NCBI RefSeq assembly: GCF_035599575.1
Contig: NZ_CP141179.1
Coordinates: 3,385,001-3,449,000, forward strand
Direction of reading: 5' to 3'
From: Roseovarius sp. Pro17
Lineage (GTDB): Bacteria; Pseudomonadota; Alphaproteobacteria; Rhodobacterales; Rhodobacteraceae
DNA: 64,000 nt
Shown here piece after piece: positions 1 to 32,508 of the stretch. The position numbers and the translations under genes are program-made. Position 1 is the first letter of the stretch. Each line of letters begins with the position of its first letter. The notes beneath the pieces were generated by a model. The model did not search any database, was not told the DNA's origin, and saw only the letters and a list, made by a program, of their open reading frames with translations.

Positions 1-20
1 CTATCAATTTCAAAGAGCGT
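1..20 (-). promoter_or_regulatory. rRNA operon leader, boxA-like antitermination site
   Basis: Read on the minus strand, the first 20 bases are ACGCTCTTTGAAATTGATAG. This resembles the boxA antitermination signal (TGCTCTTTAACA in E. coli) and the leader sequence that usually precedes 16S rRNA in Rhodobacterales. The 16S gene itself would lie to the left of position 1 and is not in the window. The abrupt start in a repeated locus suggests a contig edge. The identification rests on memory of rrn leaders plus a promoter-like sequence about 170 bp upstream. Confidence 0.65.
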
Positions 21-182
21 CGGGGCCTAGACCCCAGAGACAAAATCAACCGACTGCGCTAAATCGTTAGCGCGGTCCGCTTCATCTAACTCTGTATTCC
101 GTTGCCGTCAAGGCCTCTGGAGCGTCGCTCCGTTGTCCCGTCTGGCGTCCCGTTGTGCGCCTCAGCGCCGCCGGTGAGGTGG

Positions 183-211
183 GGTTTACGGTTTGATGCG
201 CAGACCCGCAA
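183..211 (-). promoter_or_regulatory. Putative rRNA operon promoter
   Basis: On the minus strand a TTGCGG -35 box (206-211) and a TAAACC -10 box (183-188) are separated by exactly 17 bp. They point toward the boxA-like leader about 160 bp downstream. An A/T-rich stretch (212-280) lies upstream, where an UP element would be expected. The region between promoter and boxA is GC-rich with short inverted repeats, as usual for rRNA leaders. The assignment is inferred from spacing and context; no start site is known. Confidence 0.5.
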
Positions 212-349
212 CCCCTTTTTACAGCAAAGGCCGTCTTTTTCTTAACTTTCCTGATTTTCGTATGAAATTAGGGGGTTAAGTGCTCTTTATTTCCAAACTC
301 GGCCGTCTAGCGCAACTTTGTTACAGCGCTTCCCTAGGATCAAAATGCG

Positions 350-680
350 GAATCGCTGCTTTGGACCCCGGCAAGCACCCCAGATTTGCGGAATCGCCAC
401 CCAAGGCGGCCGATTCATCGTCGCGACTCGGGGCAAAAGAGGGCGATTCCCCCCTCGTTCAACTGACTCGCGCTCAGACTCGCTGCCGCGCGCCGGATGA
501 ATCAAAGATTCCCCGCATAAATAATCAGTTCGACTCGCAATTTTCCGACCCGCTGGCCAGGATCGCACCCGACTCATGCCTCCTTGCAGCGCGATCCGCC
601 GCCAGCTGCTCAGGATTCGTCCCGGCCCACCCCGAGTCGGCGTCCTCGGTCAAATTTCGGACGGGGATGCCCGGCGATTC
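350..680. repeat. Dense array of 14 GANTC sites in a gene-free region
   Basis: Between the rRNA promoter and the first gene terminator there is no credible coding sequence. The stretch contains 14 GANTC pentamers starting at 350, 391, 412, 425, 445, 465, 477, 499, 507, 532, 571, 614, 634 and 676. GANTC is the target of the cell-cycle methyltransferase CcrM in alphaproteobacteria. At this GC content about one site per 250-300 bp is expected, so this is roughly a tenfold excess. Many intervals are 20-22 or 39-43 bp, close to whole numbers of helical turns. Neighbouring bases (212-349 and 681-783) hold nothing else I recognise. Function is unknown. Confidence 0.8.
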
Positions 681-783
681 TGATGGTTGGAACCGACGCA
701 ATCGTGCCAGCCACCCGGCCCGCAAAAAACCTCTCCACATACCCCCCTATATAGAGAGCGGCGCAGAACGGCGGTCAGCCATG

Positions 784-816
784 AAAAAGGGCGGAACCGC
801 CACCACGATTCCGCCC
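784..816 (-). terminator. Intrinsic terminator after the methyltransferase gene
   Basis: GGGCGGAA (789-796) and TTCCGCCC (809-816) form a perfect 8-bp stem with a 12-nt loop. Read on the minus strand the stem is followed by a run of five T (784-788). It lies about 40 bp downstream of the stop codon of the minus-strand methyltransferase gene and separates that operon from the GANTC-rich region and the rRNA promoter. Confidence 0.8.
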
Positions 817-854
817 CAAATTTGGGCCTCTATATAAGAGTGCGCTTTTGCGCC

Positions 855-1559
855 CTATCGCTTGTGGATCACCGCGACCTGATCGCGACGTTTCTTCTGG
901 TATTTCACGGGATGAACGATGCACGCCGAAATCTCGGGTATGAGCGCGTTGAAGGCCTCGGCCGTCTCGGGGTCGGAATGCTGAAACTCGCGCGTGTCTA
1001 TATAAGAGCGCAGCAGCGCCGCCGTCTTGGTGATGCCCGCGACCTCATACGTTTCCGGCTGCCAGCGCAGATCCTCGATCACATAGAGACCGCCGGATGC
1101 CAGCTTGGGAAATATCTCAAGAAAGGCGTTCTGCTGATGATGGCTCGCGTGGCTCGCGTCGTCGATGACGATATCGGGCGTGGGCATATCTGCCGCCGCC
1201 TGCGCGATCGCGCCGCGATCATCCATGTCGCAACGATGAAAGGTAAATCGATCATGATCGAACCATGAAAAGTCCGACACGTCGAGACCGTGGATATGCG
1301 CCTTGGGAAAATACTCCAGCCACATACGAATCGATGGGACGTCCGTCGTCTTGCGATCCGCATCGTTACCATGCTCGGGCCCGCCGATCAGGAGGCCCAT
1401 TTCCAGAAAGTTGATCTTGCGACCCCGGTAAGGGTGAAACAGCATGTGATAGAGTTCAGTATAGCGATGCTTTGTCGATCCCTTGTCCGAGCCGAACCTG
1501 TCGGCCAGATCGGTCAGGTTGATCGGGCCCTTCTTCTTGGTCTCGGTCGCGTCCAGCAT
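855..1559 (-). CDS. Class I SAM-dependent methyltransferase-like protein
   Basis: A 234-residue cytosolic protein. The N-terminal part (ADRFGSDKGSTKHRYTELYH), the acidic strand ends and a VIDDASHASHHQQNAFLE segment resemble the class I methyltransferases acting on sugars or small molecules (mycinamicin O-methyltransferase/cephalosporin hydroxylase type). The glycine-rich SAM loop is weakly recognisable (FLEMGLLIGG). I chose the second ATG: AAGGAG is 6 nt before it, whereas the first ATG directly abuts the SD. The stop of the upstream glycosyltransferase overlaps this SD, so the two genes are one transcription unit. Substrate unknown; the context suggests modification of a surface glycan. Confidence 0.75.
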   Translation of the reverse strand: MLDATETKKKGPINLTDLADRFGSDKGSTKHRYTELYHMLFHPYRGRKINFLEMGLLIGGPEHGNDADRKTTDVPSIRMWLEYFPKAHIHGLDVSDFSWFDHDRFTFHRCDMDDRGAIAQAAADMPTPDIVIDDASHASHHQQNAFLEIFPKLASGGLYVIEDLRWQPETYEVAGITKTAALLRSYIDTREFQHSDPETAEAFNALIPEISACIVHPVKYQKKRRDQVAVIHKR

Positions 1560-1569
1560 CCCCATCTCC

Positions 1570-2427
1570 TTACTCTGCCACTTCGGCCAATGATTTCTTG
1601 GTCATCACCGGCGCGGCCGCCGGATCAATTCCGTGCTTCTTCAGCAGCTGATCGATCAGCCCGCCCTCATCCGGTAACCCGTCCGGGCGCGACGCCAGAA
1701 ATTCACGGATGCGCCGCCCATAGAGGTGGATCGAGGTGGTCCGCTCCGTCAGATATGACTCGGCCGAGTCGAGGCGCGCGGCCTTGACCATGCGTCGCCG
1801 CTTTTCGAACGGAACCGGATAGAGCACCTCGCGCGCAAAGGCGTATTTGTCCTCGCCAGTCTTGTGAACATAATGCGTCACCGCCTGCGGGCCCCAAACA
1901 CCCCAAGGCAGTTCGCTGACATGAACGGGGTTGCCCGCATCCTTCAGAGTCTGCAATTTTGCCTTGGCGCCGTCGCTATACCATTCGGGGATGCCATATT
2001 CGTCATGGCTCATCTCCAGCAGACCAGCCAGCGCCGGGCTATCCTGCGGCAGACCCAGTACGCCGCCATTGATATGGCTTTCGCTTTCCCAGCCATAATA
2101 ATGTCCGGTCTCGGTCTCGAAGGGCTTCATGCAATATGCATCCGTATCGGCCCAGATCGTGCGCTCGGATTTGCTCAGCAGGTGATAGCGGAACACGTCC
2201 GAGAACAGGGCCAAACTGCCCGTGCGCCCGTGCTGGATGAACTCATCACGCTTGAGGATCGCATCGCCATGCACCACGGCGGCGCCATCCGGCACATTCT
2301 CGACCGGGCCATAATGATAGAGGGTGACGTCGTGACCCGCGTCCAGAAATGATTGAATGCACAGTTGTTCGACATAGCTCAGCGGGCCTTCGACCCACAG
2401 CATGGCAATATGGTGTAATTTACTCAT
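1570..2427 (-). CDS. GT32-type glycosyltransferase (DXD sugar-binding)
   Basis: A 285-residue soluble protein with the features of the glycosyltransferase sugar-binding (DXD) family. An N-terminal HIAMLWVEGPLSYVEQLCI segment and SDVFRYHLL are followed by the metal/nucleotide-sugar motif WADTDAYC near residue 93, and a central NGGVLGLP stretch typical of the acceptor side. It would transfer a sugar from a nucleotide donor onto a glycan or lipid carrier. It sits immediately upstream of the methyltransferase and shares its transcript. The ATG at 2427 has only a weak SD. A second glycosyltransferase starts divergently 220 bp away. Donor and acceptor cannot be told from sequence. Confidence 0.8.
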   Translation of the reverse strand: MSKLHHIAMLWVEGPLSYVEQLCIQSFLDAGHDVTLYHYGPVENVPDGAAVVHGDAILKRDEFIQHGRTGSLALFSDVFRYHLLSKSERTIWADTDAYCMKPFETETGHYYGWESESHINGGVLGLPQDSPALAGLLEMSHDEYGIPEWYSDGAKAKLQTLKDAGNPVHVSELPWGVWGPQAVTHYVHKTGEDKYAFAREVLYPVPFEKRRRMVKAARLDSAESYLTERTTSIHLYGRRIREFLASRPDGLPDEGGLIDQLLKKHGIDPAAAPVMTKKSLAEVAE

Positions 2428-2647
2428 GGATCACTTGTGCCCTCATGCCTCATTTGCCTCTCGCGCGCCCGTTTTCAGGTCTTTGCTAAGAATAACGTTA
2501 CCCCAGCGCGCAAATCCGCGCAATCGCGCAGCACTGGCACGCCCGTGGCAATTCCGCCGCAGCCTCAACTTTCGCCACAATCGCAATCCACGTGTGTCAT
2601 AAATACGATTAGCAACTCGCAAAAACCCGCAATCAGATGGGACAGGC

Positions 2648-3787
2648 ATGATCAGCAAACAAATAACGCCGTTATCGTTTTGCGTTGTGCCGTCACGCTT
2701 TTTGCGCCGGGATCTGCCTTTCGGCTACGAGGCGTGGGACGACAGCGCCAAGGCAGCATTCGACCACAATACGCTGTTCTACGACGTGTTCCAGTCTGGC
2801 ACGCCCGGCATCATCTACGCCGTCGGCCCACCGTTGAAACGTCGCTTTCGCGGGTTTCTCAAAACCGCGCAACTCAGCCTTGATGGCGCGCCCGCCACCA
2901 TGCGCGAGATCAGCCAATCGCGTCGCGCCTCCATCATCGAGATCACGACCGAGGCCCAAAACCCCTCGACCCTGTCAATTATCCATCCCCAGATGTCGTT
3001 CAGCGTCGCGGTCGGCCCGCCGCATTTGGACCGCTACGAGGGGCTGAACACCCTCTTTACGCTCAGCCGCAATAATACTTTGGACTGGGTGCGCGACTGG
3101 GCGCGTCATCACGTCGAAACCCAAGGCGTCGAGGCCATCGTCCTCTATGACAACGCCTCGGACATCTACGGCGCCGACGCGCTGACCGACGTACTCAGCG
3201 GCATCAATGGGCTCAAGACGTTCGACGTTATCCCCGCCCCATTTCAATATGGCCCCGCCGGGTTGGACCGCGAGCGCACCAGCGCACGTTTCCTGCAATT
3301 CGGCCTGTTCGAGATCACGCGCCTACGCTTCTTGCAAAAGGCGGCTGGCGTCCTGAACATGGATATCGACGAGTTGGCCCATGGCCCCGCAGGAACGACC
3401 GTGTTCGACGCAGCAGCCGGCAGCGACGCGGGCTTTCTCACCCTCCCCGGCAGCTGGCGCTATCCACAACCAGGTGCGCCACTGCTGCATAGCGCGCATA
3501 TCTGGCGCCGCGCAGACGAGGATGAGCCGATGTATCCCAAATGGTGTCTTGTGCCGGGCGGCCCACAACAGGGCAAAAGCTGGCGCACCCATGGGATCAA
3601 GGGTTTGACCAATCAGCCCCAGCACGAGTTTGGATTCTTCCACTGCCGGATGATCTCCGAAAGCTGGCACTACGATCGCTCGGAATACACCCAACTGGCG
3701 CTGGAACTAGATCCCTTGGCGGAAAAACTGCTCACACCTGCCGTTGACACGCCTCAAGTCGCCGGCCAAGGACACCAACAAAGCTAG
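2648..3787 (+). CDS. GT2/GT92-like glycosyltransferase
   Basis: A 379-residue protein. The central part (NNTLDWVRDWARHHV, then EAIVLYDNASDI, then VLNMDIDELAHG) matches the pattern of the Glyco_tranf_2_4/GT92-like group: a short helix, a strand ending in DNxS, and a DxD-type motif (DID). A C-terminal FFHCRMISESWHYDR segment is typical of roseobacter relatives. GGGACAGG precedes the ATG. The stop codon shares a CTAG palindrome with the stop of the convergent sulfotransferase gene, giving a 4-nt overlap. A role in surface polysaccharide assembly is inferred from neighbours only. Confidence 0.7.
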   Translation: MISKQITPLSFCVVPSRFLRRDLPFGYEAWDDSAKAAFDHNTLFYDVFQSGTPGIIYAVGPPLKRRFRGFLKTAQLSLDGAPATMREISQSRRASIIEITTEAQNPSTLSIIHPQMSFSVAVGPPHLDRYEGLNTLFTLSRNNTLDWVRDWARHHVETQGVEAIVLYDNASDIYGADALTDVLSGINGLKTFDVIPAPFQYGPAGLDRERTSARFLQFGLFEITRLRFLQKAAGVLNMDIDELAHGPAGTTVFDAAAGSDAGFLTLPGSWRYPQPGAPLLHSAHIWRRADEDEPMYPKWCLVPGGPQQGKSWRTHGIKGLTNQPQHEFGFFHCRMISESWHYDRSEYTQLALELDPLAEKLLTPAVDTPQVAGQGHQQS

Positions 3788-4716
3788 GGCGAAAGCAACG
3801 TGACCCGCGGGCGCGCGTCAATCTGGGCAACGTCGCTATCATAGAGCCGCGTGAGATGCGCGCGCTCTGACGCAGTCCACGGGTCATAGCCAGGGAACTC
3901 CGGTCCACGCGGATAGGCGTCCTGAATTTCCACCCGGCGTGCCAGCGCGGCATCGCCGCCGTTGCGCTCAATCTCGATCAGCAACTCCTGCACCGCGCGG
4001 TGGCTCGCCGACGGTCGCCCACGCGAACGCTTGGGCATTACCAATGTGCCCACGTCGAAACCCGGCCCGCACAGATTGCCGATGACCCTTTGCGACAGTG
4101 CGCCAAAATCCTCGTGCCGCCAGATGGTCAGTTGCGCATCCGGAAAGCATGACAACACCTCGTCGATGAACCCCGTCCAGCTAGGCAGGTTCGACAGAAC
4201 CGCGCGCTTCATCTGCGCCTCGGGTATGACGTTGTCGCCCGTGGCCGACCGTAGGAATTCGACAAACACCGAGGCAAAGAAATCCGCATAGTTGCGCAGT
4301 CCCAGATGCACCTCGCTCACCGGATAAGGGATATACTGCGCAAAGATCGGCAGCAGCACCTCGCGCCGGCTGTAGAGATGGCCCGAGCGCACGCAATGCC
4401 CACTATGGCCCGGCATGTTTTCGTCCGAGATGACGATACGCTCACCCGGCCCCGCGCCGATGCCCTTGAAAAAGGCAGTCGCCTTACGGCTCAGCATGTC
4501 GTCCGGCATCTTGGTCTTGTAATTCAGTCCCAGCTTTTCATAGCCGTTCAGCTGCGTCGGAAAGGTGTATTCCTTGCGCGTGTCGCGGTGATGCACGTAA
4601 TGCACGCCGCTTTTGCGCAGCCGCCCGGCGTTGCGTTGCAGGATCGACTGGATGTGGCTGGTCGCCGTCTTGTGAACGCCGCCATGCACCACCACTTCGG
4701 GTGTGCCCTTGCCCAT
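3784..4716 (-). CDS. Sulfotransferase-like protein
   Basis: A 310-residue protein that opens with VVHGGVHKTATSHIQSIL. This is the 5'-phosphosulfate-binding loop seen in PAPS-dependent sulfotransferases (GxHKTATS), here at about residues 9-20. A mid-protein SDENMPGH stretch and EVHLGLRNYADFFASVFVE fit the strand with the conserved RxxxxxxxS-type PAPS 3'-phosphate site, but I cannot assign the residue with certainty. It would move sulfate from PAPS to a glycan or other acceptor. It lies 4 bp after the hydrolase-glycosyltransferase fusion gene on the same strand, so the two are probably co-transcribed and functionally linked. Confidence 0.7.
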   Translation of the reverse strand: MGKGTPEVVVHGGVHKTATSHIQSILQRNAGRLRKSGVHYVHHRDTRKEYTFPTQLNGYEKLGLNYKTKMPDDMLSRKATAFFKGIGAGPGERIVISDENMPGHSGHCVRSGHLYSRREVLLPIFAQYIPYPVSEVHLGLRNYADFFASVFVEFLRSATGDNVIPEAQMKRAVLSNLPSWTGFIDEVLSCFPDAQLTIWRHEDFGALSQRVIGNLCGPGFDVGTLVMPKRSRGRPSASHRAVQELLIEIERNGGDAALARRVEIQDAYPRGPEFPGYDPWTASERAHLTRLYDSDVAQIDARPRVTLLSP

Positions 4717-4720
4717 TGCC

Positions 4721-6793
4721 CTAGCCCTCTTGCAACTCCGGCGCAGCGTTGATCACCTTGATCTGACCCCGAAACGCATCCCAGCCATCGCGCTTGCGCA
4801 GCTCTTCGATCTTGGCGCGATGCCACTCGATTGCACCCTTGTGCAGGCGCGCCAATTCGGGGTCCTTGAGCAGCTTGGCCATTTCCTTGCGCAAGCCCGG
4901 CAGGCGCGCATGGATCGACGTATCTGCCTCGGAATTATAATTCATGTTCGACCAATAGGTGATGCCCTGATCGTCGCCAACATGATTGGTCCGGCCCCGG
5001 TCGCGTTTCACCAGAAAGCTATCGACAGAACGCACGGCATAATGATGCAGCCGCGCATAATCATGGGCAAAGCCGTCATAGGCCTTCCACCCTTGCTCAA
5101 GATACAGATCCGGCATCGGCTGCCCTCCGCCGTCGACCCATGCGACATCGCCGCGATCAAGGTGAAAGGATGGGCGGTGAATGCGCAGCTTGTTGAAGCG
5201 GTCATTGTTGCGCACAAGGGTTTTCATGCCCAGCGCACGGTAGTTGGGAAATTCCAGCTCACCGCAGCCGTGATCAAACTGCTCGATCACGAAATCCTCG
5301 CAGTAATCGACCCGCCCGCTATTGCCCATCAGCTTCCAGCAGACGGAAATCGCGTCAGCATCGCCCACGGCGGCGAACAAATCGTCCAGCCGTCCCTCAC
5401 CCACGCGCACGTTCAGGAATTCATCGCAATCCGCGCAGATCAGCCAATCGGCGTTCTGCACGATCTCTTGCTTTTTTGCGTCTCTCAACGCGCTGCGCTG
5501 GGGGCTGCCGCCGGGTTTGAACTGGTTCTGGCGATGCTGCGCCAGCCCCAACTCGTTCAGCCGTTTGGCAATCAAATCGGTCCCGTCATCGCAATCGTTG
5601 GTGTAGATCAGAAAATCAGTGAATCCGATCAGGCGGTTATACGCCACCCATTCCAGCATAAAGGGGCCTTCGTTTTTCATCGTAGTGACGATGACGCGGC
5701 TTTGATCGGGTTGTTTGGCCGGCGCTTTCTGCCCCGGATTGGATGGCGCCACAATGCGCGCCTTGGATCCGTCCTCAGGCACCTTCACGCCCTTTATCTT
5801 TGGCTGCTTGGCGATATCGGCCAGTGCCTCAGGGGCAGGCGCCGCGGGCGCGACCTCTGGTGCAGGAGCGACCTCAGCCGTCTCCTCTTCCAGCTGGCGC
5901 TTGCGCTTGCGCAAACGGCGGCGGAACGCCTTGTCGAACGCATCGGCGACCTCAACACGTCCCTTTTGGCGGAAATAGTCGGACAGGGCGCCGCGATACC
6001 ACGGCAGGTTGCGACGGTCGCGATAGAGGCGGTAAAATTCCGGCTCGGTCAACTCATCCATGATGCAATGCGTCATCACCGCCTTGAGCGCGCCGATCTT
6101 GCGCAGGAACACAGCCGTCTTGTGCGACGAAAACCAGCATTTAAAGATCCGTACGTTATCGCCGTGAAAGCGGTCGACATGCTTTTGGTCCAGCTCGAAA
6201 TGCGGATCGTAGAACACGTTCACGCGCCCCGCCCCCGCCGTCAGAGCCGCACCATCAGCCAAGGGCAGTGTCCAGTCCTGCCGCTGCCCGTTTTCATAGC
6301 GCGTCTCCCACGGGACCAGATCGGGGTCCAGCGTGCTTTGCGGATTGATCGCGACCACATGCGCGCCCGGCACCAGCGACGAGAACGCCAGCGATGCGTA
6401 ACCGCCCATCGACACGCCCGCGAACACGACGCGCTCGTAGCCCTCGAAAAACCCTTGGGCCACCAGCCCCTCAAACCGGCGGATCAGAGCGGCGTCACGA
6501 TACCAATCGCTGACATGCGCCATGACGCCCAGATGGCAATAACCGCTGTCGGAGGCGAATTTGAACGCCCACGGCTCGCGCATTACGCTGTCGTCGTTAA
6601 CGTTGGAGAGGTTGTCGAACGTCACCAGCAGCCGATCGCTAGGCCGTTTGACGAACATCAATGAGTGCCTGAGGTTCTTTTCAAAGAATCCCTCGCCCTC
6701 GGCGCCGGGACGAAGATCGTCCAGCCAAAGGGGGGTTTCCGGACTGTCGCCTGCTGCCTGCTCTGCCATGTATCCAACTTTGTGCTGCGTCAT
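4721..6793 (-). CDS. Fusion of an alpha/beta-hydrolase-like domain with a GT2-like glycosyltransferase
   Basis: 690 residues in two parts. Residues about 1-275 carry an alpha/beta-hydrolase pattern: a strand LLVTFDNLSN, the nucleophile elbow GVSMGGYASLAFSS near residue 120, and a late HKTAVFL histidine. A basic and then Ala/Pro-rich linker (about 295-355, RRRLRKRKRQ followed by repeated AP) joins a Glyco_tranf_2_4-type domain with TTMKNEGPFMLEWVAYNRL, FLIYTNDCDDGTD and ICADCDEFLNV (DxD-like). The second domain is homologous in pattern to the tandem glycosyltransferases near 36 kb. SD support is weak for both possible starts (6793, and MAEQ at 6769). The hydrolase part might add or remove an acyl group on the same glycan; that is inference. 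Confidence 0.75.
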   Translation of the reverse strand: MTQHKVGYMAEQAAGDSPETPLWLDDLRPGAEGEGFFEKNLRHSLMFVKRPSDRLLVTFDNLSNVNDDSVMREPWAFKFASDSGYCHLGVMAHVSDWYRDAALIRRFEGLVAQGFFEGYERVVFAGVSMGGYASLAFSSLVPGAHVVAINPQSTLDPDLVPWETRYENGQRQDWTLPLADGAALTAGAGRVNVFYDPHFELDQKHVDRFHGDNVRIFKCWFSSHKTAVFLRKIGALKAVMTHCIMDELTEPEFYRLYRDRRNLPWYRGALSDYFRQKGRVEVADAFDKAFRRRLRKRKRQLEEETAEVAPAPEVAPAAPAPEALADIAKQPKIKGVKVPEDGSKARIVAPSNPGQKAPAKQPDQSRVIVTTMKNEGPFMLEWVAYNRLIGFTDFLIYTNDCDDGTDLIAKRLNELGLAQHRQNQFKPGGSPQRSALRDAKKQEIVQNADWLICADCDEFLNVRVGEGRLDDLFAAVGDADAISVCWKLMGNSGRVDYCEDFVIEQFDHGCGELEFPNYRALGMKTLVRNNDRFNKLRIHRPSFHLDRGDVAWVDGGGQPMPDLYLEQGWKAYDGFAHDYARLHHYAVRSVDSFLVKRDRGRTNHVGDDQGITYWSNMNYNSEADTSIHARLPGLRKEMAKLLKDPELARLHKGAIEWHRAKIEELRKRDGWDAFRGQIKVINAAPELQEG

Positions 6794-31688: not shown

Positions 31689-32508
31689 AGCGCCGCGCGT
31701 CCCAACTGGAGGACGCATGGCGGCGCGTATAAAATTCGCCCATCAGGCCGATCATCGTCAACGTGATCGCCACGACGATGGGATAGGTCACATTCGAATT
31801 ATGCGGCGAGTAATTGACGAACACGAACCCCCGCGCCTGATCGATCGTGTGAAACAGCGGATTCCAGTCGAACATCCGCAGCATATAGGTCGGCAACATG
31901 TTGGCCACGAACATCTTGCCCGACGCGATCATGTTCGCCCGCTGATAGACGGTGGCGAAGGTCGCAACGAACGTGGGAAACCACGGCTTGATCGCCAGCA
32001 GGACCAGTCCGATCGACGCGCCGGTAAACCACGCCAACAGCAGCATTCCAAAAGCCGGGTATGGTCGCTCGATCTCGAACGGAGTCACTGCGACGTGGTA
32101 GACAAAGAGGATCAGGACCATGGTAAAGACCTGCACATAGAGTGCGCCCAGCGCCGCCGAAGTGATCGAAATGGCCGTGGTCATTGGCGCGTGCTTCATC
32201 ATCGGTGATGACGGCCCTTCGGCCCCGACGACCGCGCCCAGCGTTTTTACATGCGTCAGGAACAGAAAAATCCCCGACATGATATAGAGCAGGAAATCCC
32301 CGCGCAACGCCGCACCGCGCAACCCCAGAACCGAGAACATGACGTAGAACGCCGCCAGAAAAACCAGTGCCTGAAGGATATTCAGCCCGATTGCCACGAA
32401 CGCGTTACCATGCGCCTTGCGCACGTCGCGCACCGTCGCGTGATACATCAGCTCGAGTATCGAGACCGCAGTGTGCAGCTTCGACTTGTGATGGATTTTT
32501 TGAAACAT
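31687..32508 (-). CDS. ABC-2-type polysaccharide export permease (KpsM-like)
   Basis: A 273-residue inner-membrane protein with six predicted membrane spans. It resembles KpsM/ABC-2 permeases: a hydrophilic N-terminal helix before the first span (HHKSKLHTAVSILELMYHAT), LNILQALVFLAAFYVMFSVL, then the paired later spans and a conserved WNPLFHTIDQARGFVF near the end. Such permeases export capsular or similar polysaccharides with a KpsT-like ATPase. No ATPase gene is adjacent. The stop codon (31687-31689) lies inside the palindromic element. I start at MFQKIHHK (32508); extension is possible but unneeded. It is divergent from cysQ and the glycan block. Confidence 0.8.
   Translation of the reverse strand: MFQKIHHKSKLHTAVSILELMYHATVRDVRKAHGNAFVAIGLNILQALVFLAAFYVMFSVLGLRGAALRGDFLLYIMSGIFLFLTHVKTLGAVVGAEGPSSPMMKHAPMTTAISITSAALGALYVQVFTMVLILFVYHVAVTPFEIERPYPAFGMLLLAWFTGASIGLVLLAIKPWFPTFVATFATVYQRANMIASGKMFVANMLPTYMLRMFDWNPLFHTIDQARGFVFVNYSPHNSNVTYPIVVAITLTMIGLMGEFYTRRHASSSWDARR

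Follow-up and report, generated by a model that had tools for sequence, protein, structure and literature searches.

A helically phased GANTC array upstream of the rRNA operon, common to many Rhodobacteraceae, suggests that the cell-cycle methylation system helps control ribosome production

The synthesis of rRNA sets the bacterial growth rate, and its coupling to the cell cycle is a standing question on which the array described here bears. More than one factor can bind ahead of rRNA promoters; Fis of enteric bacteria is an instance, and its upstream activating sites are helically placed, few in number and have a motif of their own. To our knowledge, no promoter has been described with phased methylation targets. 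In Caulobacter, GcrA binds methylated GANTC and sigma-70, according to the accessible parts of PMC7987155 and PMC8116508; in the former, GcrA targets are defined by a peak between -40 and +40 of the start site, and the accessible text does not name rRNA among them. SMRT sequencing has revealed GANTC m6A in six strains of Phaeobacter gallaeciensis, and the mark is listed for one strain of Tritonibacter mobilis (available portions of PMC5583230 and PMC11225332, respectively). The frequency of GANTC rises around the origin in four orders, as reported in a text whose available portion does not contain the term rRNA (PMC9836097). The GATC sites of E. coli oriC lie without integral phase, according to the SeqA paper cited. 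No such array is named in the accessible parts of the open-access literature on GANTC or CcrM with rRNA, on the DnaA box with the rRNA operon, and on Rhodobacteraceae; an earlier report may exist, subscription papers and preprints being mostly outside this literature scope.

The window analysed here is a 64,000-nucleotide stretch of Roseovarius sp. Pro17 (C1:3385001-3449000; genome of 4.24 Mb in two contigs). The 23S, 5S and tRNA genes lie to its left on the minus strand, with the intervening 16S stretch masked. The entire genome yielded a single 5S gene, so that the array sits upstream of an rRNA operon, apparently the sole one. From the letters alone, a first-pass annotation had described the array as adjoining an rRNA promoter. 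Its place upstream of the operon stands; the promoter itself is a prediction (Table 1), and a strict consensus promoter scan found none. Of the 37 positions listed for -35-like hexamers across 112 loci, 30 fall at anchor +88 to +91. The GANTC at 807 sits within the second hairpin of Table 1 and was left out of the array count. Pfam gave no match for the 855-1565 frame or its neighbours (four frames, 855-4716), and an open frame at 4721-6793 carries a glycosyltransferase family 2 domain. Near-repeats like TCTATATAAGAG occur at window 748-760, 829-843 and 997-1011, two of them sharing 93% identity over 15 nt and the third recognised by eye, and the Ruegeria cis2 sRNA family (RF02645, 77 bits) matches at window 31793-31944.

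Table 1. Features at the array locus, in window coordinates.
Feature	Position	Strand	Basis
GANTC array, 14 sites, ~10.5 bp phase	350..680	.	motif positions; same place in relatives
GANTC site starts	350, 391, 412, 425, 445, 465, 477, 499, 507, 532, 571, 614, 634, 676		
Conserved rRNA leader block, the anchor (anchor end = 220)	173..220	-	alignment; source of search pattern
Predicted -35-like TTGCGC (sense strand)	310..315	-	search between anchor +70 and +115
Weak predicted -10-like AAATAA, 17 bp from the -35-like element	287..292	-	read from sequence
Terminator-like hairpin, between array and next upstream open reading frame	731..758	-	hairpin prediction
Terminator-like hairpin with T tail	788..817	-	hairpin prediction
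Next upstream open reading frame, 236 aa, codirectional with the rRNA operon	855..1565	-	

All 14 GANTC sites that the first-pass annotation had counted in 331 bp were recovered where it placed them, and positions 1-349 are free of the motif, as it had said. The background it assumed, about one site per 250-300 bp, proved too dense: we found one per 732 bp in the remaining window and one per 685 bp in a chromosome sample of 60 stretches and 1.1975 Mb (1747 GANTC). The densest 331-bp stretch in that sample contains 7 GANTC versus 14 in the array, and dinucleotide shuffles of 350-680 gave a mean of 2.65 and a maximum of 9 (2000 shuffles). The helical phase had been put at R of about 0.78 for a 10.5-bp period; we obtained R = 0.78, which none of 20,000 random placements reached with the period fixed. 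With the period free over 10-11.2 bp, the window alone gives R = 0.80 (P = 0.0003). The reported dominance of intervals of 20-22 and 39-43 bp also held, 9 of the 13 intervals falling there. Among the outcomes named as telling against the proposal were spacing no more periodic than in shuffled controls, and a coding or repeat element accounting for the density. Periodicity survived the controls, and no repeat was found at the array, either by Tandem Repeats Finder or by a repeat-family search. No known RNA family matched there. Both strands carry open frames that overlap the array.

Window 1-860, used as a DNA query, matched in 16 of 40 genomes, every one from this genus and ours among them; the search gave 17 loci besides our own, of which 8 carry 7-16 GANTC per 331 bp and 9 carry 2-6. 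Searching with the leader pattern returned at least 119 stretches in named genomes, a sample thus biased to leader-bearing loci. From 137 loci examined, 135 had the anchor, 128 of these had 500 bp upstream, and 112 remained after removal of near-duplicates. In these 112 non-redundant Rhodobacteraceae loci among the matches listed, the median is 6 GANTC per 331 bp and the lower quartile 3; at least 7 sites are present in 52 loci and at least 5 in 73, and the largest arrays count 17 helically phased sites. Across 92 regions of 500 bp or more, GANTC occurs at 14.5 per kb at 60-500 bp upstream versus 1.1 per kb at 500-1200 bp, and seven other gapped palindromes reach 1.9-4.1 per kb in the same 60-500 bp. 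With one locus per genus, six or more sites were found in Roseovarius, Sulfitobacter, Roseobacter, Yoonia, Loktanella, Salipiger, Flavimaricola, Marinovum, Pseudodonghicola, Aestuariivita, Vannielia, Pseudohalocynthiibacter and Pseudooceanicola; 15 other readable genera have 0-5 sites each, Sagittula and Tritonibacter among them with none. This set comprises 29 genera, with just 76 bp upstream in Arenibacterium. Conservation in relatives, on which the annotation had made its proposal depend, is therefore real in many and weak or absent in others (none or one site in 6 of the 112 loci).

Eighteen further stretches comprise 7 with a visible leader, which carry 5-16 sites and overlap genomes already counted, 10 partly masked without a visible leader, and one unmasked without a leader (L280). 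Plasmid-borne rRNA copies in 13 Rhodobacterales records (L184-L194, L200, L201) lack the array, with 0-5 sites per 331 bp. Beyond Rhodobacterales, no array was found in 7 rRNA copies that other orders carry on plasmids or chromids (1-3 GANTC per 331 bp), nor in 18 stretches from other alphaproteobacterial genomes, a weak negative since just 3 of these are fully unmasked upstream of 16S (2-3 per 331 bp) and the remainder are part-masked, short or without 16S.

The phase is shared among loci. Relative to the anchor, sites pile up near 161, 171, 182, 193, 204, 215 and 226; pair distances peak near 10-11, 22, 33, 43, 53 and 63 bp, and the commonest adjacent spacing is 10-11 bp. Pooling 679 sites from 112 loci, the Rayleigh power is 177.9 at 10.55 bp, and random rotation of each locus gives at most 28.5 (500 trials). 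Because per-locus rotation destroys the power, the phase is tied to the promoter region, beyond the spacing from site to site. Periodicity within loci is also strong (1754 versus at most 284 under random placement, 300 trials), and with a single locus for each of the 26 genera entering the phase test the power is 43.5, a value reached by 0 of 2000 rotations. A phase kept with the promoter favours either contact with the polymerase or assembly of bound neighbours along one helix face.

We also asked what is conserved within the motif. Of the four-letter patterns, uninterrupted or split by a central N, seen 30 times or more in 82 loci, GANTC ranks first both in enrichment (21.6-fold over flank) and in phasing. 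Its N position takes all four bases, G least, and C before and G after the motif are preferred. In 21 pairs of related loci, substitution rates are 0.074 for G, 0.075 for A, 0.202 for N, 0.089 for T and 0.039 for C, with a background of 0.211; in four of these the two loci come from a single genome, as separate rRNA copies, or from two strains of the same species (L088/L108, L062/L125, L043/L057, L031/L135). In the same 21 pairs GANTC is kept in 300 of 368 cases, and nine control palindromes in 20-53%. An earlier set of 22 pairs, in which one species pair appeared twice and another had a duplicated genome, gave the same picture. Since G, A, T and C change slowly and N at the background rate, the selected unit is GANTC itself. 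Judged by this substitution pattern, selection is for exactly the CcrM/GcrA word, and promoter-region GANTC is under selection, as expected of a GcrA/CcrM promoter. A free N between fixed G, A, T and C appears unlike codon constraint, and on this pattern we set coding sequence aside as a likely cause of the array. The same contrast offers a comparative way to separate selected from chance GANTC.

Both proteins of the GcrA/CcrM system are encoded in the genome. The GcrA gene lies at C1:1944829-1945440, and its product matches a solved GcrA chain over residues 1-202, including both the DNA-binding and the sigma-binding parts; a CcrM-like methylase with a RAMA domain is at C1:3848557-3849672. The scores for PF07750 (GcrA) and PF18755 (CcrM-like methylase) are above their cut-offs, and the NCBIfam GcrA and CcrM models stay below their curated ones (148/280 and 640/830 bits, respectively). 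Directly upstream of the ccrM-like gene there are two GANTC and a perfect DnaA box (L180 8464-8515, C1:3848464 on). Other candidate readers were considered. SeqA had 0 matches in the genome, with a control that scores in E. coli, and MucR had none, with a control genome that did match; both were discarded as readers of the array. CtrA was discarded too, with just 2 full sites in 112 regions.

Elsewhere in the sampled chromosome, at least 5 GANTC per 331 bp occur at rpoD (7), at ccrM (5), before the end of the contig (5) and beside a phage-like gene (5). Upstream of rpoD, 23 of 24 genus loci (L204-L227) have at least 3 GANTC no more than 85 bp from the match start, the exception being a gene fragment, and a 21-bp GANTC pair is present in 21 of the 24; the rpoD sites of our own genome are at C1:432365-432414. 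The contig starts with an open frame that appears to be dnaA, so that the contig-end cluster may be the dnaA upstream region if the contig is circular. At the phage-like locus (L263 3148-3337, C1:3348148 on), the five GANTC come with GAATCCAC-like repeats, and the frame downstream of these resembles, by eye, a phage ParB/DNA methylase.

Array size differs with the place of the rRNA operon in its contig (median 10 inside, n=37, versus 5 at the edge, n=68; P = 2.5e-7; 108 loci, 3 intermediate left out), a proxy in which inside stands for one rRNA copy and edge for several. Within Roseovarius the contrast is not significant (P = 0.08), and overall it is confounded by phylogeny. Of 40 genomes of the genus, 29 yielded one 5S gene, 3 yielded two and 8 none, counts in which filters lose weak matches and drafts collapse copies.

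At the promoter-proximal end of the array, between anchor +113 and +154, 50 of the 112 loci carry a perfect DnaA box (TTATCCACA or its complement); the flanks at 500-1200 bp contain none. These boxes are in helical phase with one another (R = 0.81), typically number one per locus, and accompany richer arrays (median 9 GANTC versus 5 in loci without a box). Window 1-900 has neither a perfect box near the array, the closest being a 1-mismatch at 863 and a 2-mismatch at 731, nor a datA-like cluster of boxes. GC skew, which is noisy, is mostly negative from the array to ~3.71 Mb and positive near 3.72 Mb, and this sign change places the array ~0.33 Mb from the apparent origin. An origin at the array itself is not supported, the skew showing no sign change there, within its noise.

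A phased GANTC array that is common to many relatives suggests that the cell-cycle methylation system helps control ribosome production. The earlier proposal of a methylation-linked platform at the rRNA promoter is partly supported: conservation, the leader-tied phase, selection on GANTC with N free, and the presence of GcrA and a CcrM-like methylase all speak for it. These features, like the position and density of the array, are observed; from them we infer methylation of the array, GcrA as its reader, activation and not repression, and the link to replication. We give about even chances to the following reading: the array would be an upstream activating region whose methylated GANTC are read by GcrA, boosting the rRNA promoter and exposing it to replication. 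CcrM would methylate the sites, as GANTC m6A in Phaeobacter and Tritonibacter, of the same group, makes plausible. GcrA would then occupy several of them on one helix face, from ~35-70 bp upstream of the predicted -35 element, and through sigma-70 would hold or deliver RNA polymerase holoenzyme at the promoter. Stepping by helical turns would turn the bound molecules towards the promoter and towards one another, and a high number of sites would suit an operon that is single in the genome and needs to fire frequently. Passage of the fork would leave the whole array hemimethylated until CcrM acts, and rRNA output could therefore be linked to replication. The DnaA box found in some loci could be a second replication-linked input. 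The GANTC kept upstream of rpoD, the larger arrays of operons inside a contig, and the failure to find SeqA or MucR also count in favour of this reading. Several observations stand against it. Between about -40 and +40 relative to the predicted start site, where Caulobacter targets were defined, there is no GANTC, the array sites starting ~35 bp upstream of the predicted -35; array size varies, with a Tritonibacter locus lacking sites though GANTC methylation is reported in a Tritonibacter; plasmid-borne copies have few sites; the contrast by place in the contig is confounded by phylogeny; and the bases flanking GANTC fit the Caulobacter motif only loosely. A fuller version, in which the methylation state, reset by the fork and restored by CcrM, sets GcrA and RNA polymerase at the rRNA promoter and rpoD is likewise controlled, seems to us possible rather than probable.

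Phase and selection alone are no proof of methylation, and the sites might instead be read by a nucleoid or transcription factor blind to it, making the array an ordinary upstream activating region of the Fis kind. This we hold to be unlikely, as the four fixed bases around a free N match precisely the CcrM/GcrA word. Methylation could also act with the opposite sign, through a gate of the SeqA type: once the fork has passed, a protein on hemimethylated, same-face GANTC pairs would hold rRNA initiation down, or sequester the region, until CcrM remethylates, in a role mainly negative and transient. The peaks in pair distance listed above would fit, as would DnaA boxes nearby in 50 of 112 loci, but the genome has no SeqA match, the commonest adjacent spacing falls below SeqA's preference, and sequestration needs no phase with the rRNA leader, so we think such a gate unlikely as well.

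The first-pass annotation had also offered a decoy or anchor, in which the sites would serve to titrate GcrA or CcrM or to position the chromosome, with the rRNA operon no more than a convenient location. A density far above that of the remaining sampled chromosome agrees with this idea; however, the sites keep their phase with the rRNA leader across genera, which makes a decoy less likely as titration does not require it, and GANTC is kept at rpoD too. We consider it improbable. Still harder to credit is a replication element, either an origin or a datA-like DnaA site: box-bearing loci are numerous, but a single box is typical of them, no perfect box lies near the array in the window, and the apparent origin is distant by GC skew. 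Chance or base composition can be dismissed, since shuffles, control palindromes, phase controls and substitution rates all contradict it and no point in its favour was found.

Activation through GcrA, if true, would tie ribosome production to chromosome replication through epigenetic control of rRNA, and each of the known systems resembles the array in part. Fis sites share the helical placement upstream of an rRNA promoter, but are few and of another motif. CarD of Rhodobacter sphaeroides is alike in that rRNA promoters of the same order need an extra factor, and unlike in acting just upstream of the -10 element without an array, according to the accessible part of PMC8407463, where GcrA has 0 occurrences. 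SeqA on hemimethylated GATC at E. coli oriC has in common with the array methylation targets on one helix face and, in many of our loci, nearby DnaA boxes. Here the helically phased motif is GANTC and not GATC, SeqA has no match, and the site is an rRNA promoter rather than an origin. The array also resembles the GcrA/CcrM promoters of Caulobacter and Brevundimonas, where GANTC lies upstream of sigma-70 genes and GcrA and a CcrM-like methylase are encoded. The slight preference for C before GANTC in Brevundimonas, in the portion of the source available, is seen here as well, and the C-before and G-after preference of the array loosely fits the Caulobacter YGAKTCK motif (accessible part of PMC7987155). 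Those promoters have single or few sites in the core promoter, whereas here up to 17 phased sites lie far upstream of the rRNA promoter: an alphaproteobacterial cell-cycle methylation word, in helical phase, at the rRNA promoter in many members of a large family.
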